This document shows positions 8,729 through 23,207 of a stretch of DNA of 64,000 bases, in pieces. The stretch's first letter is position 1; each line of letters starts with the position of its first letter. A program made the position numbers and the translations under genes. The notes beneath the pieces are model-generated. The model did not search any database. It was not told the DNA's origin and saw only the letters and a program-made list of their open reading frames with translations. The stretch comes from Ancylobacter crimeensis (GTDB lineage Bacteria > Pseudomonadota > Alphaproteobacteria > Rhizobiales > Xanthobacteraceae): assembly GCF_023016805.1 (NCBI RefSeq), contig NZ_JALKCH010000002.1:186001-250000 (forward strand), in the 5' to 3' direction.

Positions 8729-9930
8729 GCGCCCCTCCAGATGCGGGCATGAAGCGGGTTGAAGCCCATGCGGTAGACCAGTTCGGCTGGGCGCTCGATG
8801 TCCCAGATCGCGAGGTCGCACCACTTGCCGGGCTCCAGCGTACCCGCCTCATGCAGCAGCCCGAGCGCGCGGGCGGCCTCGCGAGTGACGCCGGCGAGGC
8901 ATTCCTCGACTGTGAGGCGGAACAGGGTCGCGCCCATGTTCATGGTCAGCAGCAGCGAGGTGAGCGGTGAGGTGCCGGGGTTGTTGTCGGTGGCGAGCGC
9001 CAAGTGGGTGCCGTGGCGGCGGAACAGATCGACCGGCGGCACCCTGGTCTCGCGGATGAAGTAGAACGCGCCGGGCAGCAGTACGGCTACGGTGCCGGAG
9101 GCCGCCATGGCGGCAGCGCCTTCCTCATCGGTGTATTCGAGGTGGTCGGCCGAGAGCGCGCAGCAGCTTGCGGCGAGCGCGGCGCCGTGGAGGTTGGAAA
9201 GCTGGTCGGCGTGCAGCTTGACCGGCAGGCCATGGGCGCGCGCGGCCTCGAAGACCCGTGCAACCTGCTCCGGCGAGAAGGCGATACCCTCGCAGAACGC
9301 ATCCACGGCGTCGACCAGTCCTTCGCCGGCGAGCGCGGGCAGCATAACGTCGCAGACCAGATCGACATAGCCGTCGGCATCGCCGCTGAACTCCGGCGGC
9401 AGCGCATGGGCGCCGAGGAAAGTCGCCTTCACCGCTACCGGTCGCTGTTCGCCCAGCGCGCGGGCCGCCTGCAGACTGCGGCGCTCCGCGTCCAGCGCCA
9501 GACCGTAGCCGGACTTCACCTCGACCGTGGTGACGCCTTCCGCGAGCAGGGCGTCGAGCCGGGGCAGGGCGCTTGCGACGAGGGAGTCGACGCTCGCCTC
9601 GCGCGTCGCCTTCATGGTCGAGACTATGCCGCCGCCGGCGCGGGCGATCTCTTCATAGGAGGCGCCGGCGAGGCGCAGTTCGAACTCATGGGCCCGGTTG
9701 CCGCCATGGACGAGGTGGGTGTGGCAGTCGATCAGGCCGGGGGTGATCCAGCGCCCCTCGCAGCGGATGACCTCGCCCGGCCTGAAGGTGGGAGCGTCCT
9801 GCGCCGGGCCGGCATAGAGAATGCGGCCGTCGCGGCTTGCGACAAGTCCATCCTCGACCACGCCCATTGCCTCGCGGCCCGGCGCCAACGTCGCCAGCCG
9901 CGCATCCCGCCAAAGCCGATCGCAGCGCAT
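8725..9930 (-). CDS. hutI: Imidazolonepropionase
   Basis: 401-residue metal-dependent amidohydrolase, step 3: imidazolone-5-propionate to N-formimino-glutamate. The amidohydrolase HxH is seen as [14 protein letters not shown] (His70, His72). Further motifs are [24 protein letters not shown] and [14 protein letters not shown]. The start ATG at 9930 is chosen because GAGGG lies just upstream and the length matches the family. The open frame continues upstream but crosses the HutC operator and hutF. It is the first gene of the minus-strand hut operon. Confidence 0.96.
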
Positions 9931-9974
9931 CTTGCCCTCATGTGAAGATGAGGAAGGGTGACAGGGATGCGGAA

Positions 9975-9992
9975 TAATGTCTATACATATTT
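9975..9992. promoter_or_regulatory. HutC operator between hutI and hutF
   Basis: TGTCTATACA at 9979-9988 is an exact match to the known HutC motif (TGTATAKACA, read on the opposite strand) and sits within the ATGT-CTAT-ACAT dyad. It lies about 50 bp from both divergent start codons, so one bound repressor dimer could shut both the hutI-H-G-U operon and hutF. Confidence 0.8.
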
Positions 9993-10040
9993 GCATCGAC
10001 TCCCGCCGTTCCGAGCCGTTGACCCCGGAGGACGCTCCCG

Positions 10041-11408
10041 ATGACCACACCCGCCGCGCATCTGTGGTTCGAGGCCGCGCTGCTCCCCGAAGGTTGGGCG
10101 CGGCAGGTCGCGGTGGAGGTCGCAGGAGGCCGCATTGCGCGGGTTGATGCCGGGATGGTGCCCCCGGCCGGTGCGGAGCGCCACGCCGTCGGCCTTCCCG
10201 GCCTGCCGAACCTGCACAGTCACGCGTTCCAACGCGCCATGGCTGGGCTTTCGCAGGTGCGCGGGCCCTCCACCGACAGCTTCTGGACCTGGCGCGAGGT
10301 GATGTATGGGGCGCTCGACCGGATGACGCCGGAGGACGTCGAGGCGGTCGCGGCACAGGCCTATGTCGAGATGCTGGAAGCCGGTTTCACCCGCGTCGGG
10401 GAGTTCCACTATCTGCACCACGACCGCGACGGCACGCCTTATGCCGACCTCGGCGAACATGCCGCCCGCATCGCCGCAGCGGCGCAAGCCACCGGGATCG
10501 GCCTTACTTTGCTGCCGGTGTTCTATGCCCATGGCGGCTTCGGTCTGCAGGCGCCCGCGCCCGGCCAGCGACGCTTCATCAACGACGTCGAGCGCTTCTC
10601 GCGGCTCATGGAGGCGAGCGCCCGCGCCATCGCTCCCTTGCCCGACGCCGTGCTCGGGCTCGCCCCGCACAGCCTGCGGGCCGCAACGGCGGAGGAGATC
10701 GCCGCTCTGCTCCCGCTGACGGATGGCCCGATCCATATTCACGTCGCCGAGCAGATGCGCGAGGTGGATGATTGCCTGGCCTGGTCAGGCAGACGTCCGG
10801 TCGATTACCTGCTGGAGCATGCCCCGGTCGATGGGCGCTGGTGCCTGATCCATGCCACTCACATGACGGAGGCCGAAACCGTTCGTCTCGCCGCGAGTGG
10901 AGCGGTGGCGGGGCTGTGCCCGATCACCGAGGCGGATCTGGGCGACGGCATCTTCCCGGCCGAGGCGTTCGTCGCGGCAGGCGGGCGCTACGGCGTGGGC
11001 TCGGATTCCAACGTCTGCATAAACGCCGCCGGCGAGCTGCGGCTGCTGGAATATTCCCAGCGTCTCGGCTGGCGCGCGCGCAATGTGCTGGCCTCGCACA
11101 GCGGCGCATCCACCGGGCGCAGCCTGTTCGACGGCGCGCTGGCCGGCGGGGCGCAGGCGTTGGGGCAGGGGGGGGCCGGGCTGGTCGCGGGAGCGAGCGC
11201 CGATATCGTCAGCCTCGATCTCACCCGCGCTGCCTTTGCCGGGAGGCAGGGCGATGTGCTCCTTGATGCCTGGATCTTCGCCAGCCGCGGCGGCGGGGTT
11301 GATTGCGTGTGGCGGGGCGGCGAGAAGGTGGTGGAGGCGGGCCGCCACCGGGCGCGCGAGAGCATCGAGGCCCGGTTTCGCGCCAGCATGGCGCGGCTGG
11401 GCGGCTGA
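10041..11408 (+). CDS. hutF: Formimidoylglutamate deiminase
   Basis: 455-residue amidohydrolase converting N-formimino-L-glutamate to N-formyl-L-glutamate plus ammonia, step 4 of the five-step pathway; HutG then finishes. The N-terminal metal site [17 protein letters not shown] (His59, His61), followed by the family-typical [21 protein letters not shown] and a late [24 protein letters not shown], identify HutF rather than a generic amidohydrolase. It diverges from hutI across the operator and is convergent with the RutF-like gene, whose stop is one base away. Confidence 0.95.
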
Positions 11409-11409
11409 G

Positions 11410-11997
11410 CTATTCGGCGCCGCCCGCCGTGACGGCATGATAGCGCCGACCGAAATAGATCAGCCCTTCCCGGGCATCGCCGGCCGAAAGACCCACGACC
11501 TCGCAGAAGAGCACGTCATGGGTGCCGACAGGCACCACTCGCGCGATCCGGCAGTCGAAGGATACTGCCGCGCCGACCAGAAGCGGCGCCCCGGTATGCG
11601 CGGTGCGCCATTCGCCGATAGCGAACCGTTCTTCCGGGGGCACCTTGCTGCCGAAGCGGTTCGACAGTTCCTGATGGTCGCCCGCGAGCGTGTTCACGCA
11701 GATGACGGCATTTGCTGTTACGATCGGATAGGCCGAGGAGGCGCGGTTTATGCAGACCAGCAGCGTCGGCGGCTCGTCGGTCACGCTGCAAACCGCCGAG
11801 GCGGTGAAGCCGGTGCGCCCCGCCGGTCCGTCCGTCGTGACGATATTCACCGCGGCGCCGAGCCGGGCCATGGCGTCCCGGAATTCCTGACGCGTCACCG
11901 CGGGCCGGCGATCCGCCTCGATCCTCGTGCCCACGAGCGATGCTTCCACCGGTTCGGCCCCGCGCTGTACGTTCTCCGGGGGCTGGCATTGTCCCAT
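11410..11997 (-). CDS. NADH:FMN reductase, RutF/HpaC-like
   Basis: 195-residue flavin reductase-like (FMN-binding split-barrel) protein. The body from TRQEFRDAMARLGAAVNIVT through TASAVCSVTDEPPTLLVCIN, VNTLAGDHQELSNRFG and VGTHDVLFCEVVGL closely resembles RutF, the reductase that feeds FMNH2 to the pyrimidine monooxygenase RutA. Here no rutA-rutE genes are present, and the gene follows an NtaA-like monooxygenase by 76 bp on the same strand, so it most likely supplies reduced flavin to that enzyme. A GAGGAGG ribosome site supports the start at 11997 despite a roughly 30-residue N-terminal extension. The exact electron donor is inferred. Confidence 0.88.
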   Translation of the reverse strand: MGQCQPPENVQRGAEPVEASLVGTRIEADRRPAVTRQEFRDAMARLGAAVNIVTTDGPAGRTGFTASAVCSVTDEPPTLLVCINRASSAYPIVTANAVICVNTLAGDHQELSNRFGSKVPPEERFAIGEWRTAHTGAPLLVGAAVSFDCRIARVVPVGTHDVLFCEVVGLSAGDAREGLIYFGRRYHAVTAGGAE

Positions 11998-12073
11998 TCC
12001 GACCTCCTCGGCGCCGCCTGCGCGGCGCTTTTGCGATGGAGATGCCGAGCCTTTGAGAGGCCCGGCAAGGCAC

Positions 12074-13387
12074 TCAGAATTCGCGCAGATTGTCTCTCAG
12101 CAACTGGTGCTTGTATTCGGAGCGCACAAGCCCGCGGCGCTGCAGCTCCGGCACCAGCCCGTCGGTGATCTCGGCGATGTAGCGCCGGCCCACGCGCAGC
12201 ACCGGGGTGGTGATGAGGAAGCCGTCACCGCCAACCTCGGCCATTGCCTCGCCCATCTTCTCGGCGACCTGCGCCGGGGTTCCGATCAGTTCCAGCGAAG
12301 AAACGAGGCCGCCGCCGCCATCGGCTGCAAGTTCCCGCAGAGTCTTGCCGGAGCCCCACTGCTGGAACTTGTCGAGCGTGCCGGACTCGCCGTTCGTCAC
12401 CAGCTTCTCGGGCAGGGGCTTGTCGAGGTCGAATTGGGCGAAGTCGATCTCGGTAATGGCGGAGATGGAGATGAGCACGTCGGTGGCAAAATTGTCCGAC
12501 ATCGTCACGCGCCTGTACCGGGCCTGCGCCTCCTCCTCGGTCTCGCCGAGGCTGGGGGTGATGCAGAAGAACACCTTGATCTCGTCCGGATCGCGCCCGA
12601 TCTTCACGGCGCGGGCGCGGATGTCGTCCCGGAATTCCTTCATGCCAGCGACGCCGTTCGCCACTGAAACGATCGCATCCGCATGGCGGGCGGCGAAATC
12701 GCGCCCGCGCGGCGAGGCGCCGGCCTGAAGGTAGCAGGGACGGCCCTGCGGCGAGGGCACGGTGTTGAGCGGCCCGCGGACCTGATAATATGTGCCTTTG
12801 TGGTCGATGCTGTGGACCTTGGAGCCATCGGCATAGATGCCGTTGGCGCGGTCGAGCACCACGGCGTCCGGCTCCCAGCTTTCGAACAGCTTGCCGACCA
12901 CCTCCATATATTCTTCCGCCATGCCGTAGCGGTCCTCACGCGGGGGCAGGCGGTCCATGCCGAAATTCTTCGCCATGAGGTCTTCGGCCGAGGTCACCAC
13001 GTTCCAGCCGAAGCGGCCTTTGGTCAGGCTGTCGATGGTGGAGGAGAGGCGCGCCAGCATGAAGGGCGGATACGCCATGGTGGACATGGTGGCGACCACG
13101 CCGAGATGCTGCGTCGCCATGCCCATGGCGACCGCGAGCGGGGCGGGATCGGCCTTCGGCACCATCATGGCGTGCTTCAGCGAGAGGTCGCGCGAGGCGC
13201 CATAGGTCTCCGGCACCATGAGCTTGTCCTCGATCATGATAAGATCGAAGCAAGCGCGCTCCAGGGCCTGCGCCATCTCGATGTAGAACTGACCGTCCCA
13301 CGGCTTGCCGCCCTGGCCGAAGGGCTCGCGCCACTCGTCGGGGGTGAAGTTCATGAACCACGCGAGATGGAAGCGGTTGTCGGCCAT
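12074..13387 (-). CDS. LLM-class flavin-dependent monooxygenase, NtaA/SnaA/DszA family
   Basis: 437-residue bacterial-luciferase-like two-component monooxygenase. The N terminus FHLAWFMNFTPDEWREPF, then ACFDLIMIEDKLMVPETYG, RFGWNVVTSAEDLMAKNFG, the YYQVRGPLNTVPSPQGRP stretch and QAGASPRGRDFAARHADAI are typical of the nitrilotriacetate/pristinamycin/dibenzothiophene-sulfone monooxygenase branch. These enzymes use FMNH2 from a partner reductase to insert oxygen and often cleave C-N or C-S bonds. The start at 13387 has AAGGA about 8 nt upstream. It lies between the ABC ATPase and the RutF-like reductase, implying oxidation of the imported compound. The substrate is unknown. Confidence 0.9.
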   Translation of the reverse strand: MADNRFHLAWFMNFTPDEWREPFGQGGKPWDGQFYIEMAQALERACFDLIMIEDKLMVPETYGASRDLSLKHAMMVPKADPAPLAVAMGMATQHLGVVATMSTMAYPPFMLARLSSTIDSLTKGRFGWNVVTSAEDLMAKNFGMDRLPPREDRYGMAEEYMEVVGKLFESWEPDAVVLDRANGIYADGSKVHSIDHKGTYYQVRGPLNTVPSPQGRPCYLQAGASPRGRDFAARHADAIVSVANGVAGMKEFRDDIRARAVKIGRDPDEIKVFFCITPSLGETEEEAQARYRRVTMSDNFATDVLISISAITEIDFAQFDLDKPLPEKLVTNGESGTLDKFQQWGSGKTLRELAADGGGGLVSSLELIGTPAQVAEKMGEAMAEVGGDGFLITTPVLRVGRRYIAEITDGLVPELQRRGLVRSEYKHQLLRDNLREF

Positions 13388-13444
13388 GGGGACGGTCCTT
13401 GCAGGATGTGCCGCAGCGCTCTGCACCGCTGCGGCGGGGCACGG

Positions 13445-14236
13445 TCAATGGGCTGAGATGAGCTGGAGGCGCGCGTTTTGGCGTTCCGCCTCGAAGCGGC
13501 GGGACTGCCGAACGATGCGGCTCTTGGCCTCGAAGTCGGAGGAGATGGTGGCGCCGAAACGTTCCGGCGCCTGCGGATCGGTACGCGGCCGGTCCACGGC
13601 GATGACGCGGGTGCCGAGCAGGAACGCCTCGGAGAGATCGTGCGTGACCATCACGATGGTCATCTCGTTCTCTTCCCACAATTCGCGGACCAGCGTGTGC
13701 ATCGAGGCTCGCGTGCCGGGATCGAGCGCGCCGAAGGGTTCGTCGAGCAGCAGCACCTTGGGCTTCATGATGAGGGCCTGCGCCAGTGCGAGCCGCTGCT
13801 GCATCCCGCCGGAGAGCTGCTGGGGATATTTGCTCGCATGTTCCGCGAGCCCGACGCGGGTGAGCAGCGTCATGGCCTGCTCTTCCAGCGCCCGGCGCTT
13901 CGCCCCGAACAGCCGGCCGAGAATGGGCGAGGCCAGCCATTGCGGTCCGCGCATCACGTTGCCCAGCACGGTGAGGTGCGGGAACACCGAATAACGCTGG
14001 AACACAACGCCGCGATCATGCGTCGGCTCTGGCGCGATCGGTTCGCCGTCGATCAGGATGCGGCCGCGGGTCGGTCGTTCCTGGCTGAGAAGCATGCGCA
14101 GCAACGTGGTCTTGCCGACACCGGAGGGGCCGATGATGACGAGAAACTCGTGGTCGTCCAGGGTGAGGTTCACCCGCTCCAGCACGATGCGGTCGTCATA
14201 TTCCTTCCAGACGTCGTCGAGGACGATGGTCGTCAT
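13445..14236 (-). CDS. ABC transporter ATP-binding protein, SsuB/TauB family
   Basis: 263-residue ATPase of the second importer. It shows Walker A GPSGVGKTTLLRML, signature LSGGMQQRLALAQAL, Walker B VLLLDEPFGALDPG and the H-loop in VMVTHDLSEAF. The C-terminal tail after RVIAVDRPRTDPQAPERFGA fits the group found with urea-carboxylase-region transporters (resemblance only). It starts 3 bp after the permease stop. It is the third gene of the minus-strand operon that begins with the binding protein at 16245. Confidence 0.88.
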   Translation of the reverse strand: MTTIVLDDVWKEYDDRIVLERVNLTLDDHEFLVIIGPSGVGKTTLLRMLLSQERPTRGRILIDGEPIAPEPTHDRGVVFQRYSVFPHLTVLGNVMRGPQWLASPILGRLFGAKRRALEEQAMTLLTRVGLAEHASKYPQQLSGGMQQRLALAQALIMKPKVLLLDEPFGALDPGTRASMHTLVRELWEENEMTIVMVTHDLSEAFLLGTRVIAVDRPRTDPQAPERFGATISSDFEAKSRIVRQSRRFEAERQNARLQLISAH

Positions 14237-14239
14237 GGC

Positions 14240-15058
14240 TCAACCCTCCCGGATCCGGTCCCAGGGGAAGCACGCGGCATTCAGCCGGCGCAGGCCCCAG
14301 TCCATGAGGAAGGCGAGAAGGGTGATCCAGGCGACATAAGGCAGGATTACATCCATCGCCAGATAGCGTCGTACCAGGAAGATGCGGTAGCCCAGCCCGC
14401 CCTCGGCGGTGATTGCCTCGGCGGCGATGACATAGAGCCAGGCCGCGCCGAGCGAGAGCCGCACCGAGTCGATCAGGCGCGGGAGCACCTGGGGCAGCAC
14501 CACGCCGGTGATCATCTGCCAGGTGGAGGCGCCCAGCGTCTGCGCCTTGATGATCTGCTCGCGCGGGATCGAGGCGACGCGCAGCATCACGTCGCGGATG
14601 ATGAAGGGCGCGATGCCGAACACGATCAGCACGATCTTCGACAGTTCGCCGAGGCCGAACAGGATGAACAGGATCGGCAGTACGGCGAGCGGCGGGATGA
14701 GCGAGAAGGCCGCCATGAAGGGCTCGAACATCGCGCGCAGATGGGGGATGAAGCCGATCAATATGCCGAGGACCAGGCCGAGCAGCGCCGAGATGCCGAG
14801 CCCCTGCACCAGCCGCCACAGACTGAGCGCGGTGTCCCACCACAGCAGATACTGCTTGGTGGCGATGTCCACCGTCGTCGCGAGGCGGGTAATGGAGGCA
14901 TAGAAGGAGGCGAAGGCCGGCATCAGCTTGTCGGCCGGATCGATGGCGAGCCGCGCATTGGAGCCGGCCAGATAGACCAGCAGCACCACGACGAAGGGCA
15001 ATGCGCCCAGCACGATGCGGGTGCCGTTACCCGGCGCGTAATTGATGATGCGGCGCAT
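14240..15058 (-). CDS. ABC transporter permease, SsuC/TauC family
   Basis: 272-residue permease with about six membrane segments and an EAA-like loop around QIIKAQTLGASTWQMITGVVLPQ. The start at 15058 (MRRIINYAPG) has GGAGG about 9 nt upstream; the open frame continues upstream without a better site. A long periplasm-facing region (about residues 45-85) between the first two helices is a feature of the urea-carboxylase-associated permease group. Only one permease gene is present in this operon, so a homodimeric channel is expected. Confidence 0.88.
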   Translation of the reverse strand: MRRIINYAPGNGTRIVLGALPFVVVLLVYLAGSNARLAIDPADKLMPAFASFYASITRLATTVDIATKQYLLWWDTALSLWRLVQGLGISALLGLVLGILIGFIPHLRAMFEPFMAAFSLIPPLAVLPILFILFGLGELSKIVLIVFGIAPFIIRDVMLRVASIPREQIIKAQTLGASTWQMITGVVLPQVLPRLIDSVRLSLGAAWLYVIAAEAITAEGGLGYRIFLVRRYLAMDVILPYVAWITLLAFLMDWGLRRLNAACFPWDRIREG

Positions 15059-15156
15059 GAAGGGCCTCCGGCTCCCGTTGGTGGGGCAGGTGAGGGCGCT
15101 GGGCTCGGGAAAGTGGCCGCCGCTCCGGGCGGCGGCCATCGATGGCGCTCAGGCGC

Positions 15157-16245
15157 TCACAGCTTGCCGTCGGCGGCGAGCTTGGTGAACGAGGCGTTGA
15201 TACGCATCTTGATGTTGTTCTTGTCGCCGAGCACGGTGCCGTCAGCCGTCTCGATGCCGATCGCATCCACGCTGGAGGCGCCCTGTCCGAACAGGCCCTG
15301 CGCAAAGCAGAAGGTACGGATGCTGTCCCAGATCTTCGCGTTCTCGGCGGCGGTCAGGAAGGCGTAGGCGTCGGCGGGCGTATAGAAGAAGTGGGTGGTG
15401 TCGAGCTGGCTCTGCAGGCCGCCGGCATCGGTGCCCATGGCGCTGGTCATCACCGCGCGCATCTCCTCGGCCTTCGGGCCGCCGGCCTTGAGGATGCCGA
15501 GCGCCTCATACCAGGCGCCGAGGACGGCCTTGGCGAAGTCGGGATTGTCCTTCAGCGTCTCGGTCTTGCCGATGAACACGTCCATGATTTCGCCGGGAAT
15601 GCCCGAGCTGTCGAACAGCTTGGTGGCGCCCTTCACCTTGAGCATGTCCTCGGTGAGCGGCTTCCAGGAGACGGCATGCTTCATCGCGTCCTGTGAGACG
15701 AAGGCGGCGGAGATCTCGCTGTCGGAGATGTTCACCGTCTTGACCCCGGCCGGATCGACGCCCGCCTTCTGGAGCGCGCGGTTCAGTAGATAGTGCGAAA
15801 CGCTGTACTGCAGGAGGTAGACCTCCTGGCCGGACAATTCCTTCACGTCCTTCGCGGTCTTGGAAAGGACGATGTCGTTGCCGTTGGAATAGTCGGTGAT
15901 GAGGAACACGGACGTGTCGACCCCGCCTGCCGCCGGCATGGTGAGGCCGTCCATGGAGGCGACGCCGACCGCGTCGATCTCGCCGGCGATGAACTGGTTG
16001 ACGCTGCCGACATAGTCATTCGCGAGAATGAGGTCGACATCGATGCCATATTTATCCGCCCACTTCTTCATGATGCCGGACGACTTCATGTAGGAGAAGG
16101 GCATGAACCCGATATAGACCGTGTAGGCGAGTTTGAAACTCTTCTTGGCCGCGGCCTCGGCGGTGCCGTGCGCGGCGATGCCGACCGTGGCGAGCGTTGC
16201 AAGGAGAAGGGCGCAGGCGCGGACGGCACGCTTCAAACGCTTCAT
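15157..16245 (-). CDS. ABC transporter substrate-binding protein, urea-carboxylase-region type
   Basis: 362 residues with a clear Sec signal peptide (MKRLKRAVRACALLLATLAT, likely cleavage after the AEAA region near residue 33). The mature part, with SFKLAYTVYIGFMPFSYMK, SGIMKKWADKYGIDVDLILA, NDYVGSVNQFIAGEIDAVGV, DYSNGNDIVLSK and FDSSGIPGEIMDVFI, strongly resembles NMT1-superfamily proteins encoded beside urea/guanidine carboxylase genes. That points to a urea-, guanidine- or amide-like ligand. It is the first gene of the minus-strand operon and starts 50 bp from the TetR-type palindrome. Specificity is inferred from memory of the family, not tested. Confidence 0.85.
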   Translation of the reverse strand: MKRLKRAVRACALLLATLATVGIAAHGTAEAAAKKSFKLAYTVYIGFMPFSYMKSSGIMKKWADKYGIDVDLILANDYVGSVNQFIAGEIDAVGVASMDGLTMPAAGGVDTSVFLITDYSNGNDIVLSKTAKDVKELSGQEVYLLQYSVSHYLLNRALQKAGVDPAGVKTVNISDSEISAAFVSQDAMKHAVSWKPLTEDMLKVKGATKLFDSSGIPGEIMDVFIGKTETLKDNPDFAKAVLGAWYEALGILKAGGPKAEEMRAVMTSAMGTDAGGLQSQLDTTHFFYTPADAYAFLTAAENAKIWDSIRTFCFAQGLFGQGASSVDAIGIETADGTVLGDKNNIKMRINASFTKLAADGKL

Positions 16246-16294
16246 GGTCGGGCGGCTCCTGAAAAGGGGTGCGCGGGGGCAGCGCTGGACATGG

Positions 16295-16316
16295 CTATTA
16301 AGCGATGACTTAATAG
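16295..16316. promoter_or_regulatory. Perfect inverted-repeat operator in the divergent tetR/importer promoter region
   Basis: CTATTAAG at 16295-16302, a 6-bp spacer, then CTTAATAG at 16309-16316: a perfect 8+6+8 dyad 50 bp from the binding-protein start and 64 bp from the tetR start. Its size and position are typical for a TetR-family dimer site controlling both divergent operons. A weaker CTATT...AATAG dyad follows at 16333-16353. Confidence 0.7.
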
Positions 16317-16379
16317 GGTGGAGCAAGCCTAACTATTGGGCAGCACAAAATAGCGGCGGACTGGGGGCGGATTGTTCGT

Positions 16380-17009
16380 ATGCCATTGATTGAAAAGGCG
16401 CCGCGCCGCCGACTCCAGCCCGCTGAACGCCGCACCCTGATCCTCGAAGAGGCGCTGCGCCTTTTTGCTGAGCGGCATTATTCCGGCGTGTCCGTGCGCG
16501 ATATCGCACTCGCCTGCGGCATCAATGTCGGATTGCTCTACCATTATTTCGACAGCAAGGATGCGCTTGTACGCAGCGCGCTGGAATATGCCATCGCCAA
16601 CCTGATGACGGGCTACGCGGAGCGTCGGCAGGCTCTGGACGATGCCCGCGCCGAGATCGAGGCGTGGCTCGACACCCATGTCGTGATGGCCCCGATGCTG
16701 GTGCGGATGGTACAGCTCATGGGTGATTATGCGTCCTCCGGCGTGCGCGCGCCGGAGATCGACGCCCTGATCGCCGGCTTCTACCAAAGCGAGCGCGACC
16801 TGCTGGAATCCGCACTCGCCAAGGGTGTCGCGCGCGGCGACTTTCCTCTCATCGACGTGGCGACGACCGCCCGCCGCATCGGCCTGATGCTGGATGGCAT
16901 CTTCTTCGCATCCCGCAGTCGCGGCGACGACCGGGTGGTTCAGGACATTCGCGACCTTGCCGGTTTTCTCGACGACATCCTGCGCATCTCGCAGCGGAGC
17001 CGGTCATGA
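16380..17009 (+). CDS. TetR family transcriptional regulator
   Basis: 209-residue one-domain regulator. The helix-turn-helix is at about residues 15-60 (ILEEALRLFAERHYSGVSVRDIALACGINVGLLYHYFDSKDAL), followed by a helical ligand-binding domain with the TetR_C-like region MVQLMGDYASSGVRAPEIDALIAGFYQ. It is divergent from the importer/monooxygenase operon and heads the strand carrying the dehydrogenases, creatininase-like and ureohydrolase genes. The perfect dyad in the shared promoter is its likely site. The ligand is probably the catabolic substrate (inference). Confidence 0.9.
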   Translation: MPLIEKAPRRRLQPAERRTLILEEALRLFAERHYSGVSVRDIALACGINVGLLYHYFDSKDALVRSALEYAIANLMTGYAERRQALDDARAEIEAWLDTHVVMAPMLVRMVQLMGDYASSGVRAPEIDALIAGFYQSERDLLESALAKGVARGDFPLIDVATTARRIGLMLDGIFFASRSRGDDRVVQDIRDLAGFLDDILRISQRSRS

Positions 17010-17140
17010 ACGTCGCGGCTGCATCGGACGCCGGCGAAGCAATTATTGCCCAAAGGAGATAGCCAGCCATGGGGCGCCCAGCGAGCCTTTCACCCTGCAC
17101 ACGCTCGTGCGGATCGTCCCTTCGATTCGGTTAGGCCAAG

Positions 17141-17911
17141 ATGTCCCTGCTTCCTTCCGCTCTCGGTCTCGCCGGGCGGCGCGTGCTCATCACCGGCGCC
17201 AGCCGCGGCATCGGTTACGGCATTGCCGAAGCTTTCGCCTCGGCAGGCGCGAAGCTTCACATGCTGGCGGAGGACGTCGGTATAACCGAGGCGGCGGCCC
17301 GGCTCGGCGCCGATCCGTATCGGGTGGACATCACGGATAATGAGGCGGTCACAGCGGTGCTGGGAGCCATCGGCCCGCTCGATGTCGTGGTGAACAATGC
17401 CGGCCTCGAACTCATCACCCCGCTGGACGATGCCAGTGCTGAGAACGAGATGCGGTTCCGCCGAATCCTCGACATCAACATCACCGGTACCTTTCTTGTC
17501 GCGCGCGCCGCGTTGCCGCTGATGGGGACGGGTGGGCGCATCATCAACACCGCCTCGATCTGGGGACGGGTCGGCGAGCCGCTGTTCGGCGCTTATGTCG
17601 CCTCCAAGCATGCGGTGATCGGGCTCACCAAGAGTTGGGCGAAGGAACTAGGGCCGCGCGGTATCACGGTGAATGCAGTGTGCCCGGGCTGGGTGCGCAC
17701 GGTGGCGTCGATGCGCTCGCTCGCTGCCATGGCTGTGCGGACCGGGACGGACGAAGAAGCGCTGCTCGCAGATATCGTCAGCTCGCAGGCGCTTCCGGGC
17801 CTGATGGAGCCCGCCGACATCGCCGGCACCTATCTGTTCCTCGCCTCCGACCTTGCGGCCAATGTCACCGGCCAGTCGCTCGGCGCTGATCGTGGAGACA
17901 CGCCATGGTAG
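17141..17911 (+). CDS. Short-chain dehydrogenase/reductase (SDR) 1
   Basis: 256-residue classical SDR. It has the cofactor motif TGASRGIG (about residues 18-25), NNAG at about residue 84, the catalytic Ser in INTASIWG and the YxxxK pair in YVASKHAVIG. The C terminus (GQSLGADRGDTPW) departs from the usual GGxxxxDGG ending, so substrate-end binding may differ. The start ATG has only a weak ribosome site; a much better one (AAAGGAG at about 17052) serves a 21-codon open frame just upstream. It overlaps the second SDR by 7 bp. A role in oxidising an alcohol intermediate of the neighbouring pathway is inferred. Confidence 0.9.
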   Translation: MSLLPSALGLAGRRVLITGASRGIGYGIAEAFASAGAKLHMLAEDVGITEAAARLGADPYRVDITDNEAVTAVLGAIGPLDVVVNNAGLELITPLDDASAENEMRFRRILDINITGTFLVARAALPLMGTGGRIINTASIWGRVGEPLFGAYVASKHAVIGLTKSWAKELGPRGITVNAVCPGWVRTVASMRSLAAMAVRTGTDEEALLADIVSSQALPGLMEPADIAGTYLFLASDLAANVTGQSLGADRGDTPW

Positions 17912-18624
17912 AATCCTCTGCAATGCTCGCCGGCCGCCGCGCCCTCGTCACCGGGGCGGCAAGCGGCATCGGGCGGGCAATCCTGCTCGCCTTCAAGGCT
18001 GCCGGCGCCCGCACTGTCGGACTGGATCTGAAGGCGCCCGCCGAGCCCGACGCCGACTGGATGCTCGTAGACCTGTCGGATGGCGCTGCTATAGGTCCGG
18101 CGGTGGAGGCGGCGACTGCGCGGCTCGGCGGGCTCGACATCCTCGTCAATTGCGCGGGGTTGCTCGTGGAGGGCGATTTGGCGGACTTCGATCCTGCGGG
18201 CCTCGACCGAATGCTGGCTATCAATGTCCGCGCGCCGTTCGTTGTCGTTCGCGCCGCGCTGCCGGCGATGGGCGAGGGTGGGCGTATCATCAACATCGCT
18301 TCCGAACTCGCCTATCTCGGTCGGGCCGGCGCCTCCGGTTACAGCGCGACGAAGGGGGCCGTGCTTTCGGCGACGCGGGCATGGGCGCGGGAACTGGCGC
18401 CCCGCATCCTCGTCAACGCCATCGCGCCAGGACCGGTCGATACACCGCTGCTCGGCTTTTCCGCGATGAACGAGGCGCAGCGGGCGTTGGAGACGAACAA
18501 TCCGCTCGGGCGCATCGGCCGGCCGGAGGAGATCGCTGCTGCGGCGGTGTTCCTCGCCTCGCCCGGAGCTTCCTTTATTACCGGCCAGTGCCTCAGCGTC
18601 GATGGCGGCGCGGGTATGCATTGA
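17905..18624 (+). CDS. Short-chain dehydrogenase/reductase (SDR) 2
   Basis: 239-residue classical SDR with TGAASGIG at about residues 16-23, NCAG, the catalytic Ser in INIASELAY, YSATKGA (YxxxK) and a normal C-terminal GQCLSVDGGAGM. The N-terminal half is shorter than usual between the second strand and NCAG. It overlaps SDR 1 (shared bases at ATGGTAG), so the two are translated together and may act in sequence or as a heteromer. It is followed 33 bp later by the creatininase-like gene. Confidence 0.9.
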   Translation: MVESSAMLAGRRALVTGAASGIGRAILLAFKAAGARTVGLDLKAPAEPDADWMLVDLSDGAAIGPAVEAATARLGGLDILVNCAGLLVEGDLADFDPAGLDRMLAINVRAPFVVVRAALPAMGEGGRIINIASELAYLGRAGASGYSATKGAVLSATRAWARELAPRILVNAIAPGPVDTPLLGFSAMNEAQRALETNNPLGRIGRPEEIAAAAVFLASPGASFITGQCLSVDGGAGMH

Positions 18625-18657
18625 GCCAGCTCATCATCATTACGGCAGGGTATCCTT

Positions 18658-19434
18658 ATGGTCGACAGCGTCTTCATGGCCGAGCTGAGCTGGCCCGAAT
18701 ATCAGGCGAAGATTAAGGCCGGCGCGCCGGTCTTCCTTTCGCTCGGCGCCACCGAGCAGCACGGACCGCACTCGCCGCTCGGCGTCGACGTATACTTGCC
18801 CACGGCGGTGTGCGAGCGCGTGGCTCGCCAAGTGGGCGGTCTCGTCGCTCCCACTCTGCCTTACGGCGCCAAGTCGAAGCCGCGTTCGGGCGGCGGGGAG
18901 GCCTTCCCTGGCACCACCAGCCTCGACGTCTTGACGCTGATCCTCGTGGTGCGCGATATCGTGCGGGCGCTCGGGCGTGACGGCGTGAAGAAGATCATCG
19001 TGGTGATCGGCCATTTCGAGAACGGCTGGCCGGCTGTGGAGGGCATCGACCTCGCTTTCCGCGACCTCGCGCGCGAGGGATTCGACGACGTGAAGATCAT
19101 GCGGCTGGAATACTGGGACTTCGTCGAGCCGGCGACCCATCACCGGCTCTACCACCCCAAGATGTTCCCCGGCACGGAACTGGAGCACGCGAGCCTCATC
19201 GAGACCTCGCTGATGATGCTGGTGCGCCCGGATCTCGTCGAGATCGACAAGGCTCCCGACGACGGCCCGGCGCAGTTCCCGAGCTATGACATCTGGCCGA
19301 CGCCGGAAGGCTTCGCCCCGCGCTCCGGTGTGCTGGCGGATGCGCGCGGCTCGACCGCAGAGAAGGGCGGATGGCTGATGGACGATCATGTCGCGCTCAT
19401 CACCGCGGCGGTGAAGGCGGAGTTCGGACTGTGA
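18658..19434 (+). CDS. Creatininase family hydrolase
   Basis: 258 residues, the same length as characterised creatininases (creatinine to creatine, binuclear metal). It keeps the metal ligands Glu33, His35 and Asp44 (GATEQHGPHSPLGVDVY) and His119, Glu121 (GHFEN), the SGGGEAFPGTTSLD loop, the catalytic-type Glu176-His177 (ELEH) and the aromatic YWDFV. The Trp found in the GWDIEH loop of creatininase is replaced (PGTELEH), so the substrate may not be creatinine itself. The family also contains lactone/lactam and ketoinositol hydrolases. It is in an operon with SDRs and a ureohydrolase; its stop overlaps the next start. Confidence 0.88.
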   Translation: MVDSVFMAELSWPEYQAKIKAGAPVFLSLGATEQHGPHSPLGVDVYLPTAVCERVARQVGGLVAPTLPYGAKSKPRSGGGEAFPGTTSLDVLTLILVVRDIVRALGRDGVKKIIVVIGHFENGWPAVEGIDLAFRDLAREGFDDVKIMRLEYWDFVEPATHHRLYHPKMFPGTELEHASLIETSLMMLVRPDLVEIDKAPDDGPAQFPSYDIWPTPEGFAPRSGVLADARGSTAEKGGWLMDDHVALITAAVKAEFGL

Positions 19435-20420
19435 ACCCGACGAACGGCAGGACTCTCGCCGATTTTCAGCCGGTCGATTCCGGCACCACGCCCCGCTATG
19501 CGGCGATCCCCACCTTCATGCGACTGCCGATGGCCAGCCCGGAGGAAGTCGATATCGCACTTGTCGGGGTGCCGTTCGACGGCGGCACCACCAACCGCGC
19601 CGGCACTCGCCACGGACCCCGCGAGATCCGCAACCAGTCGAGCCTCACGCGCCGGGTGCACCATGTCTCCGGCATTTCGCCCTATGATCTCGTCAAGGTT
19701 GGCGATTGCGGCGATGCGCCGGTCAATCCCATTGACCTGATGGGTTGCCTCGATGCCATTACCGATTTTTACACCGGCATCCGCAAAGCGGGCGCAACCC
19801 CGCTCACCGCGGGCGGCGACCACCTGATCTCGCTGCCGATCCTACGCGGGCTCGTGAAGGACAATCCGGTGCTCGGCGGGCCGGTGGGGATGATCCACTT
19901 GGATGCCCATTCCGATACCTATGACACCTTCTTCGGCGATCATCGCTACACTCATGGTACGCCGTTTCGCCGCGCCATCGAGGAAGGGCTGCTGGACCCC
20001 AAACGGGTGATCCAGATCGGCCTGCGGGGAGCGATTTCGGACGCCGCGAATTACGATTATGCGCGGTCGGTCGGCATTCGCATCGTGTTCATCGAGGAAT
20101 TGGTGGCGCGCGGCATCGAGGATGTGATGGCCGAGGCGCGCGAACGGGTCGGGGACCGGCCGACCTATGTGTCCTTCGACATCGACATCATCGACCCCTC
20201 GCAGGCGCCGGGCACCGGCACGCCGGAGATCGGCGGCGTCACCACGCGCGAGGCGCAGCAGATGGTGCGGCTGCTGCAGGGCGTGAACATGATCGGGGCG
20301 GATGTGGTCGAGGTGTCGCCGCCCTTCGATCCGTCGGGCCTCACCGCCCTGACGGGGGCGACGATCATGTTCGAGCTGCTCTGCGTGCTGGCGGATTCCC
20401 TCGCCAGCCGCCGTGGCTGA
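19431..20420 (+). CDS. Ureohydrolase family protein (agmatinase/guanidinobutyrase-like)
   Basis: 329-residue arginase-fold enzyme. The metal ligands are all visible: His131 (GGDHLISL), Asp158, His160 and Asp162 (LDAHSD), and Asp250 and Asp252 (SFDIDIIDPSQAPGTGTPE). Such enzymes hydrolyse the guanidino group of a substrate to urea plus an amine. It most resembles guanidinobutyrase/guanidinopropionase types (EIRNQS, VEVSPPFDPSG). The start is GTG at 19431, overlapping the creatininase-like stop; an upstream ATG lies deep in that gene. Context suggests release of urea from a ring-opened guanidino compound. Exact substrate is unknown. Confidence 0.88.
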   Translation: MNPTNGRTLADFQPVDSGTTPRYAAIPTFMRLPMASPEEVDIALVGVPFDGGTTNRAGTRHGPREIRNQSSLTRRVHHVSGISPYDLVKVGDCGDAPVNPIDLMGCLDAITDFYTGIRKAGATPLTAGGDHLISLPILRGLVKDNPVLGGPVGMIHLDAHSDTYDTFFGDHRYTHGTPFRRAIEEGLLDPKRVIQIGLRGAISDAANYDYARSVGIRIVFIEELVARGIEDVMAEARERVGDRPTYVSFDIDIIDPSQAPGTGTPEIGGVTTREAQQMVRLLQGVNMIGADVVEVSPPFDPSGLTALTGATIMFELLCVLADSLASRRG

Positions 20421-20426
20421 AGCCGG

Positions 20427-20448
20427 GCGGCCGGGTTCGCCCGGTCGC
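20427..20448. terminator. GC-rich stem-loop between convergent genes
   Basis: GCGGCCGGG pairs with CCCGGTCGC (one G-T pair) around a TTCG tetraloop, 6 bp after the ureohydrolase stop and before the PEPCK-like stop. No U-tract follows, so termination is uncertain. Confidence 0.35.
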
Positions 20449-20456
20449 GCGATGTC

Positions 20457-22073
20457 CTATTCCGCGGCGATGGCGAGGCGCGGGCAGGCGTCGCGGACTT
20501 CCTCGTCCACCGCCTCCTCGAAGCGCTCGAAATTCTCGACGAAACGCCCGGCGAGGCGGCGCGCGGCGGCCTCATAGGACTTGATGTCCGGCCAGTTGCG
20601 CGCGGGGTTGAGCATCTGCGGCTCGAAACCGGGGAAGGAGGTCGGCACGGAGAAGCCGAAATAGGGGTCGGTCCGGCTGTCGGCCTCGCCGAGAGCGCCG
20701 GAGATCGCTGCCTCCACCAAACGCCGCGTAAGGGCAAGCGGAACCCGTCGCCCGGTGCCGGCCGGGCCTCCGACGAAGCCGGTGTTTACCAGCCAGCACG
20801 TTACCTCGTTGCGCTCGATCAGCGCCCGGAGCTGGTTGGCGTAGACGGAGGGATGGCGGGTCAGGAATGGTGCGCCATAACAGGGGGAGAAGGTCGTCTC
20901 GGGCTGCGCGCCCTGCGGGCCGTCCTTCTCGGCTCCCGGCCAGCGAGCGCTGTAGCCCGAAAGGAAATGATACATCGCGATCACCGGATTCAGCCGGGCG
21001 ATCGGCGGCAGCACGCCCTCGGTGTCGCAGGCAAGCATCAGGAGCGTGCGCGGGGCGGCGGCGCGCCCGCTCAGGCTCGCATGCGGCATGGCCTCCAGCG
21101 GGAAGGTGGCACGGGCGTTCGACATGTGTGCGCCGGCATAGTTCGGCTCGCGGGTTTCGCCGTTCAGCGCGACATTCTCCAGCACGGTGCCGAAGCGGTT
21201 CGCTGCCGTGAAGAGTTCCGGCGTTGCCGCTGCGCTCAGCCGGGCTGCGCTGACATGGCAACCGCCCTCGATGTTGAACAGGCCGGAAGGTCCCCAGCCA
21301 TGCTCGTCGTCACCGATAAGCGTGCGGGCGTCGTCGACGGCGAGCGTGGTCTTGCCGGTGCCGGCCAAGCCCAGATACAGCGCCGCGTCGCCATTCTCGC
21401 CGACCGTGACAGCGCCATGGAGCGGCAGCACGCCGCGAGCGGGCAGGACATGCGTGAGATAGCCGAACACCGCTTTCTTCAGCTCGGCGGCATTGAGAGT
21501 ACCGCACGCCAGAACCTCGCCACGGGCTAGGTCGAGCGCGATCACCGCCTGTGAGCGCACGCCGTGTCGTTCCGGGTCAGCCTTGAATCCGGGTATGCTC
21601 AGGACGGTCAGCGCAGGGATGAAGTCGGCCAGCTCCTCGCGCTCCGGGCGGCGCAGCATGGTGCGCAGGAACAGGCCTTGCCATGCACATTCGCAATAGG
21701 CCCGGACATTGACCCGATAGGCTGGCTCGGCACCGGCGAACAGATCCTGCGCGAAGAGCGAGCGGCCGGCGGCATAAACAAGGAGATCGGCGCGCAGTGT
21801 GTCATAGGCCTCGCGACCGATGGGCTGGTTCGCGCCCCACCACACCTCAGCCTCGCTGACGTCCTCGCGCACGATATAGCGGTCTTGCAGGGAGGTGGCG
21901 GTTGGTCCGGTCTCGACCGTAAGAGTGCCGGCAGCCGAGAGCCGGGTTTCACCACGGGCAATGGAACGCTCGTAGAGCGCAGCCTCGGTGAGGTTCCAGA
22001 ACACGATTCCCGAACCGTCGAGGCCAAAAGCGGCGGCGCCCGATTCGGCATTGCGTGTGCCGGTTTCCTGCAT
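20457..22073 (-). CDS. ATP-type phosphoenolpyruvate carboxykinase-like protein, divergent
   Basis: 538 residues, the usual length of ATP-dependent PEPCK. Kept: the P-loop GLAGTGKT (235-242), IGDDEHGW (253-260), Lys199-Lys200, His219, Arg321 and NTGFVGGPAGTGRR. Altered: the oxaloacetate-binding GRSxKDK is ATSLQDR (about 59-65), so its Arg is gone; the conserved Tyr of YAGEMKK is Asn194; GLSGTGKT is GLAGTGKT; GGCYAK is GGCHVS. Canonical PEPCK converts oxaloacetate plus ATP to PEP plus CO2. With these changes the protein may be a weak or repurposed paralogue. AAGGAG precedes the ATG. It is divergent from the Crp/Fnr gene. It is too intact to call a pseudogene. Confidence 0.8.
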   Translation of the reverse strand: MQETGTRNAESGAAAFGLDGSGIVFWNLTEAALYERSIARGETRLSAAGTLTVETGPTATSLQDRYIVREDVSEAEVWWGANQPIGREAYDTLRADLLVYAAGRSLFAQDLFAGAEPAYRVNVRAYCECAWQGLFLRTMLRRPEREELADFIPALTVLSIPGFKADPERHGVRSQAVIALDLARGEVLACGTLNAAELKKAVFGYLTHVLPARGVLPLHGAVTVGENGDAALYLGLAGTGKTTLAVDDARTLIGDDEHGWGPSGLFNIEGGCHVSAARLSAAATPELFTAANRFGTVLENVALNGETREPNYAGAHMSNARATFPLEAMPHASLSGRAAAPRTLLMLACDTEGVLPPIARLNPVIAMYHFLSGYSARWPGAEKDGPQGAQPETTFSPCYGAPFLTRHPSVYANQLRALIERNEVTCWLVNTGFVGGPAGTGRRVPLALTRRLVEAAISGALGEADSRTDPYFGFSVPTSFPGFEPQMLNPARNWPDIKSYEAAARRLAGRFVENFERFEEAVDEEVRDACPRLAIAAE

Positions 22074-22475
22074 GGCTCTTCTCCTTGGCGACCGGTCGGC
22101 CGCAGCGGGCCGCCGTTTCCTTCCATGAGTTCCCGCCAGGCGGGCACGTGATGGGTCTAGCGGATGTCTTCCTCATCACTTGTGCTGATAATGTGGCGAG
22201 ACCCGCGGCCGCAGGACGCTGCCGCGCAGGTCCAACCCCATGACCTTACGCAGCGAGGCCCTTTGCCGGTGGCTCCGGGCTTCCCTTGCGCTGTTTCAGC
22301 CCCCGCAACGTTTTGCGAAGCACGATCCGTCCATTGTAGGTGGCGTTTCGGAGGTGGCGGTCAATTTTTGTGAACCATGTCCCGCAAATCGTCCTGCAAT
22401 TCGGCGTGTGCGGGCCCCGTGCGTGATGGCGGGTGGCGTGCTACGCAGGGAGCGGATGCATCAGGGCGGAGCGAG
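22074..22475. other. 402-bp intergenic region between PEPCK-like and Crp/Fnr genes
   Basis: This holds the divergent promoters of the two flanking genes. No convincing Fnr box (TTGAT-N4-ATCAA), terminator or RNA gene is visible. An open frame extending the Crp/Fnr gene upstream to 22377 exists but lacks a ribosome site. Confidence 0.4.
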
Positions 22476-23207
22476 ATGCGGGTTCGCTGTTTCGAATGTC
22501 CGCTGAGGCGGCGGCGGGCCTTCAAGCCGAAAACCGAGACAGAAGTCGGCTTTCTCGACGCCTTGAAGCGCGACCATCTTTCCGTGCCGCCGGGCACCGA
22601 GCTCATCCAGCAGGGGCAGGAGGACGCCGACCTCTACACCCTGTTCTCCGGCTGGGCCTTCCGCTTCAAGACATTGCCGGACGGACGCCGCCAGATCCTC
22701 CACTTCCTCCTGCCCGGCGACTTCATCGGCCTGCAGGGCGCGATGTTCGATGCCTCGCTGCACGGGGTCGAGACGCTGACCGATGCTGAGTTCTGTGTCT
22801 TCCCGCGCCGCCGGGTGTGGTCGCTTTTCGAACAGGTGCCGCAGCTCGCCTTCGAGGTGTCCTGGCTCGGCGCCCATGAGGAAAGCATGGTCGACGAGAA
22901 CCTGGTCTCGGTCGGCTTGCGCAATGCCGGGGAGCGGGTCGCGGCCCTTATCCTGATGCTGCACAGGCGCTGCCGGACGCTGGACCTCGTGGCGCCCGAC
23001 AATTCGATCCCCTTTCCGTTGAATCAGGGCCACATCGCCGACGCGCTGGGCCTGTCGCTGGTTCACACGAACAAGACCATCGCACGGCTGAGGCGTCTGG
23101 GCCTGTTTGCGCAGAGCAATGGCCGCCTCACTCTGCTGAACCCGAAGGTGATGGAACGGCTCGCCCAGTACTATGAGGACGAGCCGGCCCCGCGGCCTAT
23201 CATCTGA
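22476..23207 (+). CDS. Crp/Fnr family transcriptional regulator
   Basis: 243-residue regulator with an N-terminal cyclic-nucleotide-binding-like barrel (GTELIQQGQEDADLYTLFSGWAFRFKTLPDGRRQILHFLLPGDFIGLQGAM) and a C-terminal winged helix (about residues 175-235, QGHIADALGLSLVHTNKTIARLRRLGLF). Only two cysteines (Cys5, Cys8 in CFECPLR) are at the N terminus, so the four-cysteine iron-sulfur sensing of true FNR is unlikely. The start at 22476 is preceded by GGAG. It is divergent from the PEPCK-like gene and convergent (9 bp) with the HugZ-like gene. The target genes are unknown. Confidence 0.88.
   Translation: MRVRCFECPLRRRRAFKPKTETEVGFLDALKRDHLSVPPGTELIQQGQEDADLYTLFSGWAFRFKTLPDGRRQILHFLLPGDFIGLQGAMFDASLHGVETLTDAEFCVFPRRRVWSLFEQVPQLAFEVSWLGAHEESMVDENLVSVGLRNAGERVAALILMLHRRCRTLDLVAPDNSIPFPLNQGHIADALGLSLVHTNKTIARLRRLGLFAQSNGRLTLLNPKVMERLAQYYEDEPAPRPII

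Follow-up and report, generated by a model that had tools for sequence, protein, structure and literature searches.

In a 64,000-nucleotide stretch of the Ancylobacter crimeensis genome (contig NZ_JALKCH010000002.1, positions 186,001 to 250,000; hereafter the window), ten genes are arranged in two divergent operons around one palindrome (Table 1). The minus-strand operon encodes a flavin reductase, an FMN-dependent monooxygenase and the three components of an ABC importer, whereas the plus strand carries a TetR-family regulator followed by two short-chain dehydrogenases (SDR1 and SDR2), a creatininase-like metallohydrolase and an arginase-fold ureohydrolase. An earlier interpretation of this DNA, made from its letters alone (the sequence-only reading), had listed the ten genes; all are open reading frames in the order that it gave, and the families agree with the profile matches. 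The SDR1 and SDR2 genes share 7 bases, and SDR2 ends 33 bases before the creatininase-like gene, which in turn shares 4 bases with the ureohydrolase gene, so that these four genes are probably carried on one transcript. The stop codon of the TetR gene and the start of SDR1 are 131 bases apart.

Table 1. Features of the ten-gene locus (window positions) with the profile or structure matches behind each assignment.
Feature	Position	Strand	Evidence
RutF-like flavin reductase, probably supplying FMNH2 to the monooxygenase (start codon unsettled)	11410..11997	-	PF01613 134 bits
FMN-dependent monooxygenase, NtaA/DmoA family (LLM)	12074..13387	-	TIGR03860 420 bits, cut-off 279.7
ABC transporter ATPase	13445..14236	-	PF00005
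ABC transporter permease	14240..15058	-	PF00528; nearest NCBIfam model TauC 125 bits, under cut-off
Substrate-binding protein, TIGR03427 'putative urea ABC transporter', NMT1 fold family	15157..16245	-	405.9 bits, cut-off 333.9
Palindrome, probable TetR operator	16295..16316		exact; between binding-protein and TetR genes
TetR-family regulator	16380..17009	+	PF00440
Short-chain dehydrogenase SDR1	17141..17911	+	PF13561/PF00106; TGxxxGIG and S-Y-K motifs
Short-chain dehydrogenase SDR2	17905..18624	+	PF13561/PF00106; TGxxxGIG and S-Y-K motifs
Creatininase-like metallohydrolase, Thr replacing Trp174	18658..19434	+	TIGR04448 326.5 bits, cut-off 235
Arginase-fold ureohydrolase, closest to 3-guanidinopropionase	19431..20420	+	PF00491 304 bits; 3nip 433.6 bits

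SDR1, SDR2, the creatininase-like gene and the ureohydrolase gene form a conserved module. A search of 297 genomes from the order at E 1e-40 gave creatininase-like matches in 28, and in 14 of these, the host included, identity is at least 55% (genomes and loci of the comparison are denoted by G and L numbers). SDR2 lies near all 14 copies, and SDR1 and the ureohydrolase gene near 13 each, both being missing at the G233 locus. Two more copies reach 55% in a sample of 385 genomes of the class: G641 carries all four plus-strand genes, and G338 has SDR2 and is devoid of SDR1 and the ureohydrolase. The closest named creatininase-like copies are those of A. lacus (82%), which is accompanied by the ureohydrolase gene alone, and of A. 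defluvii (69%), where all four genes are found. Over the resulting 18 loci with a copy of at least 55%, SDR2 is near in 17 and the ureohydrolase in 16. A frequent order is LysR | binding protein-permease-ATPase-SDR1-SDR2-creatininase-like-(Rieske)-ureohydrolase-(second ureohydrolase), and the LysR-side transporter is missing in the window, in A. defluvii and in G077. The pairing of a creatininase-like protein with an arginase-fold enzyme in a module without creatinase, as put forward by the sequence-only reading, is thus kept in relatives. At L121 (Rhizobium sp. CIAT894), genes for an HpaI-like aldolase and an aminotransferase-like protein of class V, which possibly catalyse later steps, adjoin the SDR pair; this pair and the creatininase-like and ureohydrolase genes are arranged divergently.

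The creatininase-like protein retains the creatininase metal ligands Glu34, His36, Asp45, His120 and Glu122, as well as Glu177 and His178; all seven residues are kept in the window protein and in 36/36 other copies. Position 174, which is Trp in the Pseudomonas putida enzyme and was changed to Phe in structure 3a6e, is Thr in the window. We compared this position in 48 copies of more than 40% identity, classed by their neighbours within 3.5 kb, an SDR neighbour being defined by at least 45% identity and a creatinase neighbour by an M24 marker gene whose structure matches identify it as creatinase (7yto, 907 bits; 1chm, 593 bits). Trp174 occurs in 0/21 SDR-linked copies vs 11/11 creatinase-linked ones (Fisher p 8e-9, kinship ignored). 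The L003 copy, with a ureohydrolase neighbour alone, has Thr; the L051 copy, with ureohydrolase and polysaccharide-deacetylase-type neighbours and no SDR, is an exception in having Trp174; and the 14 copies without any marker neighbour have Trp in 12 cases and Leu in two. In the tree, the creatinase-linked copies and the P. putida creatininase form a single clade (support 100/99), and the base of the main SDR-linked group is weakly supported (77/85). The Salipiger copy, on a long branch and of unsure place, falls outside this group, so that two changes are needed to account for the SDR-linked copies. A polyamine-type ABC binding protein is encoded near 10/11 creatinase-linked loci vs 0/21 SDR-linked ones. 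By residue 174 and neighbourhood, the SDR-linked copies without Trp174 can be assigned to a separate CREATININASE subfamily, and an SDR beside the gene together with residue 174 provides a simple test that tells the two groups apart in the loci compared.

Because Trp174 is replaced and the protein lies outside the P. putida clade, creatinine itself is an unlikely substrate. The absence of creatinase, claimed by the sequence-only reading, was borne out: the host genome gives four M24 matches, all to other enzymes, namely an Xaa-Pro aminopeptidase-1-like protein (410 bits), a type I methionyl aminopeptidase (286.5 bits, cut-off 171.35), the ectoine hydrolase DoeA (826.4, cut-off 613) and a dipeptidase-like protein (PepE 111 bits, creatinase 40 bits).

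The best PDB matches of the ureohydrolase are the 3-guanidinopropionase 3nip (63% identity), followed by the guanidinobutyrase 3nio (306.4 bits, 50%) and the proclavaminate amidinohydrolase 1gq6 (254.5 bits, 44%). Comparison with GpuA, the 3-guanidinopropionase of Pseudomonas aeruginosa, indicates that the five metal ligands are kept. The position aligned with GbuA Met161, presumably a specificity determinant in GpuA, where it is Tyr, is occupied by Phe in the window branch and by Tyr in L048-L054. The Arg at the GbuA Arg72 position is also kept; in the part of the source consulted, this residue is described as one that could contact the substrate carboxylate (PMC9772407). Since GpuA is the closest enzyme and this Arg is kept, but Phe replaces Tyr, the substrate is likely a guanidino acid, though not surely 3-guanidinopropionate. 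The host possesses six arginase-family genes and a gene for the urease alpha subunit (E 1.6e-57; alpha was the sole subunit sought), and a TIGR02712 search of its genome for urea carboxylase gave no match above cut-off. The free-guanidine pathway was tentatively set aside on this last ground and because Rfam gave no match in window positions 10000-22500 and none at the gathering score in 14 related loci.

The SDR pair was also examined in its own right. SDR1 and SDR2 lie within 1.5 kb of each other at 22 loci, which include a creatininase-like gene in 19, a polysaccharide-deacetylase-type gene in three and both in none; at least one of two ureohydrolase types accompanies the pair in 19/22. Most of these loci had been picked via the creatininase-like or ureohydrolase gene, so that the figure of 19 creatininase-like loci is biased. 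A less biased set comprises 16 plasmid records found by SDR1, of which ten were examined, the other six being all from Ensifer adhaerens. Two of the ten loci contain a creatininase-like gene, eight a deacetylase-type gene and none both, with SDR2 beside SDR1 in eight. As one of two kinds of hydrolase stands beside the SDR pair, a cyclic amide step in the pathway is suggested. The deacetylase-type protein is a distant relative of the allantoinase PuuE (83.5 bits, cut-off 424.6; 65 bits to 3cl6). This assignment of the alternative opener to the polysaccharide-deacetylase/allantoinase superfamily disfavours streptidine or another guanidino-inositol with C-C ring opening, for which the IolN model gives 58.9 bits vs 245; guanidino-inositols had been among the candidates of the sequence-only reading.

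Some relatives include in the module a Rieske oxygenase whose nearest PDB match is the carnitine monooxygenase 6y9c (125 bits). In L042, L045 and L047 its gene separates the creatininase-like gene from the ureohydrolase gene; in L068 and L069 it lies 3' of the creatininase-like gene, with no ureohydrolase. In G233, the genome of L069, a search for the ureohydrolase at E 1e-60 gave no match and the urease match is weak (27 bits), but the DUF1989-carboxylase-allophanate hydrolase cluster is complete, a set of genes that would fit oxidative guanidine release. In relatives without the ureohydrolase, the Rieske oxygenase may release guanidine rather than urea.

In the minus-strand operon, the permease reading frame opens at 15139 and the inner ATG at 15058 was chosen as its start. 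The reductase scores just under the cut-off of the RutF model TIGR03615 (249.5 bits, cut-off 254.75); the monooxygenase fails as a Rut pathway partner (RutA model 68.5 bits, cut-off 498.3), and its best PDB match is the dimethyl-sulfide monooxygenase 6ak1 (267 bits). A class-level search at E 1e-180 found the monooxygenase in 5/380 genomes, with no copy above 66% outside the host. We read all neighbourhoods of the ten relatives from the order set whose monooxygenase reaches at least 76% identity. TetR and the reductase each stand beside the set in nine and the transporter in six. By coordinates, the creatininase-like operon lies within 10 kb in one relative (G111), and five others (G077, G269, G142, G215 and G252) have it in another part of the genome, so that six carry both operons, and four are without a creatininase-like copy of at least 55%. 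These counts indicate that the operons usually lie apart and that TetR belongs with the monooxygenase set.

Outside this sample, a plasmid of Salipiger sp. CCB-MM3 unites in one cluster TetR | binding protein-permease-ATPase-monooxygenase (82%)-creatininase-like-SDR1-SDR2, which makes a joint role of both operons plausible. In L080 a transporter of the window type also adjoins SDR2-SDR1-DUF1989-creatininase-like, and in L067 one adjoins the plus-strand set. In G233 and G285, the genes for relatives of the binding protein (49% and 47%, respectively) are clustered with a urea/guanidine carboxylase gene, an allophanate hydrolase gene and two DUF1989 genes, in agreement with the proposal that the importer is of the urea/guanidine-carboxylase kind. 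The sequence-only reading had treated the divergent operons as one system, open to doubt if relatives did not keep them together; separation in 9/10 relatives speaks against this, and the Salipiger cluster, which joins most of the genes, speaks for it. From gene order, we read the two operons as modules that serve one class of substrate and are occasionally joined.

The palindrome CTATTAAG-N6-CTTAATAG is the sole match in the window when up to two mismatches are allowed (0 in 100 shuffles), and CTATTAAG-N4-8-CTTAATAG occurs exactly at one place in the genome. The palindrome reported earlier is thus exact and unique, and it probably serves as the operator of TetR. A like-spaced palindrome, mostly TATTAAAC-N4-GTTTAATA, is present in 8/12 TetR-side segments of other loci, and none was found in the remaining four (L092, L094, L120 and L127). 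Rfam gave no match in window positions 10000-22500 and none at the gathering score in 14 related loci.

Several other genes border these operons. An amidase gene lies directly 3' of the flavin reductase gene in two relatives (L093, 4262-5644; L099, 11802-13202). In G077, a gene for a fused OHCU decarboxylase-hydroxyisourate hydrolase (L092, 4646-5533) and molybdenum hydroxylase genes flank the monooxygenase set, and G111 has a second binding protein-permease-ATPase-monooxygenase set (52-61%) at L103 (G111:C9). In the window, the region 7193-11408 beside the locus carries histidine-use genes, histidine ammonia-lyase (677 bits, cut-off 539) and the formimidoylglutamate deiminase HutF (648 bits, cut-off 413), with an amidohydrolase between them that resembles imidazolonepropionase. 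On the other side, a phosphoenolpyruvate carboxykinase gene (PF01293) follows the ureohydrolase gene both in the window (20457-22073) and in A. lacus (L003, 11824-13440; 65%), which indicates a common chromosomal place, though A. lacus has no SDRs there.

We propose, with a probability of about 0.4, that the plus-strand genes serve to scavenge nitrogen from a small guanidino compound by way of a cyclic amide, with import and the monooxygenase supplying the precursor. The observed basis consists of the genes and how well they are conserved, the presence of a urease gene, the absence of both creatinase and urea carboxylase, and the residue changes; from it we infer the substrate, the joint action of the operons, the order of the reactions and, by family chemistry, every reaction. 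The TauT/NMT1-type importer, under TetR control, would probably bring in the precursor, and the two-component FMN monooxygenase would probably oxidize it to the aldehyde level, a task that may fall to SDR1 elsewhere. Both SDRs would oxidize an alcohol or aldehyde on the carbon chain of the guanidino compound. On chemical reasoning, a short guanidino aldehyde could close on its own guanidine to give a cyclic carbinolamine, which SDR2 would oxidize to a cyclic acylguanidine, a lactam resembling creatinine. Ring opening by the creatininase-like metalloenzyme would give a guanidino acid, the guanidinopropionase-like enzyme would split the acid into urea and an amino acid, and urease would turn urea into ammonia. 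Candidate substrates include derivatives of 2-guanidinoethanol such as lombricine, 3-guanidinopropanol, taurocyamine and a cyclic guanidine.

A number of observations weigh against this scheme. The host also encodes, unlinked to the locus (L149, 8352-10412; G000:C21), a ureohydrolase of the second type (80%) with a deacetylase-type protein (65%), so the two hydrolase types may act at different steps rather than replace each other. NAD-dependent SDRs typically have an acidic residue where strand 2 ends, and most, not all, of the SDR copies have one there. The creatininase-like/ureohydrolase pair of A. lacus has no SDR beside it, and L068 and L069 are without SDR1, which is hence not always needed. 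In 9/10 relatives the monooxygenase set is away from the creatininase-like operon, and no ureohydrolase was found in the Salipiger cluster within the 25 kb fetched.

Other explanations share part of this evidence. The imported substrate could already be a cyclic guanidine heterocycle, for example one derived from a pyrimidine or purine such as dihydroisocytosine or a guanidinohydantoin, which the monooxygenase and SDRs would modify before ring opening and urea release. A cytosine permease (Gemmobacter) and a BMP-family ABC system (Roseateles) beside the SDR pair, the distant relationship of the deacetylase-type opener to PuuE and the urate-pathway gene bordering the monooxygenase set in G077 are consistent with such a substrate; but other loci have polar-amino-acid or TauT-type transporters, the urate neighbour occurs once among 11 neighbourhoods, and rings of this kind open without oxidation, yet no part of the system is more constant than the SDR pair. 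We regard this explanation as unlikely. It is also rather improbable that the operons are unrelated neighbours, the plus strand alone being a guanidino module and the minus-strand set having its own function, for example sulfur or alkyl-group release. Their proximity in only 1/10 relatives, the four relatives devoid of a copy of at least 55%, the constancy of TetR beside the monooxygenase set (9/10) and the separate LysR and transporter of other plus-strand operons argue for independence, whereas the single Salipiger cluster with monooxygenase, creatininase-like gene and both SDRs, the window-type transporter bordering SDR/creatininase-like genes in L080 and L067, and the reach of the two operons to each other in G111 argue against it, as does the lack of a LysR-side transporter in three plus-strand operons, that of the window and those of the two other SDR-containing Ancylobacter loci.

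A creatinine pathway in which the ureohydrolase replaces creatinase (creatinine to creatine, then sarcosine and urea) would suit the TIGR04448 score above cut-off, the kept metal ligands and a genome lacking creatinase. It was set aside by residue 174, lost in 21/21 SDR-linked and kept in 11/11 creatinase-linked copies, and by the clade (100/99) that unites the P. putida creatininase with the latter; the distribution of the polyamine-type binding protein (10/11 vs 0/21) points the same way, and no role is left for two SDRs. We consider this pathway very improbable.

Known systems resemble the locus in part. The creatininase-creatinase pathway also opens a ring with a creatininase-family enzyme and then releases urea; unlike it, the present system has no creatinase, two SDRs, an arginase-fold ureohydrolase and a creatininase-like protein of a separate clade without Trp174. 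GpuA shares 63% identity, the metal ligands and the Arg at the GbuA Arg72 position with the window ureohydrolase and differs in Tyr vs Phe at the Met161 position, and the neighbours of the window gene are SDR and creatininase-like genes. The guanidine/urea carboxylase pathway has an importer of the same TIGR03427 family, but carboxylase, the DUF1989 pair and allophanate hydrolase are missing from the window operons. As with NtaA/DmoA monooxygenases and SsuEADCB-like sulfonate operons, monooxygenase, flavin reductase and a TauT-type transporter are in one operon; the urea/guanidine-type binding protein, TetR control and the creatininase-like gene of the Salipiger cluster set the present system apart. 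Methylguanidine demethylation by a dioxygenase and a lyase, as far as the source was consulted (PMC12508155), likewise feeds an oxygenase step into guanidino-nitrogen use, with a 2-oxoglutarate dioxygenase and other genes; the terms 'short-chain' and 'Rieske' were not found in its main text. Within the parts consulted, a review of microbial creatinine routes gives four, none of the present kind (PMC11764249), and ammonia-oxidizing archaea are described with creatininase-like genes near amidohydrolases (PMC12625717). A full-text literature search, with most subscription journals outside its coverage, found no paper on this gene combination, in line with the novelty claimed for it.

The observation made from the letters of the DNA is therefore confirmed, and its interpretation is partly supported. 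More tentatively than for the window itself, we suggest a general and hitherto undescribed route in bacteria for guanidino alcohols or aldehydes, extended by the monooxygenase to taurocyamine-like or alkylguanidine precursors, in which the SDRs would make a lactam, a creatininase without Trp174 or, in some other bacteria, a deacetylase-type hydrolase would open it, and a ureohydrolase, or a Rieske oxygenase that may release guanidine, would follow. The module could be tested with a few synthetic substrates. If the proposal is true, proteins named 'creatininase' and 'agmatinase' in Ancylobacter, Methylopila, Hansschlegelia, Skermanella, Azospirillum and others are mis-named, and the module would represent a missing step in the soil use of guanidino nitrogen.

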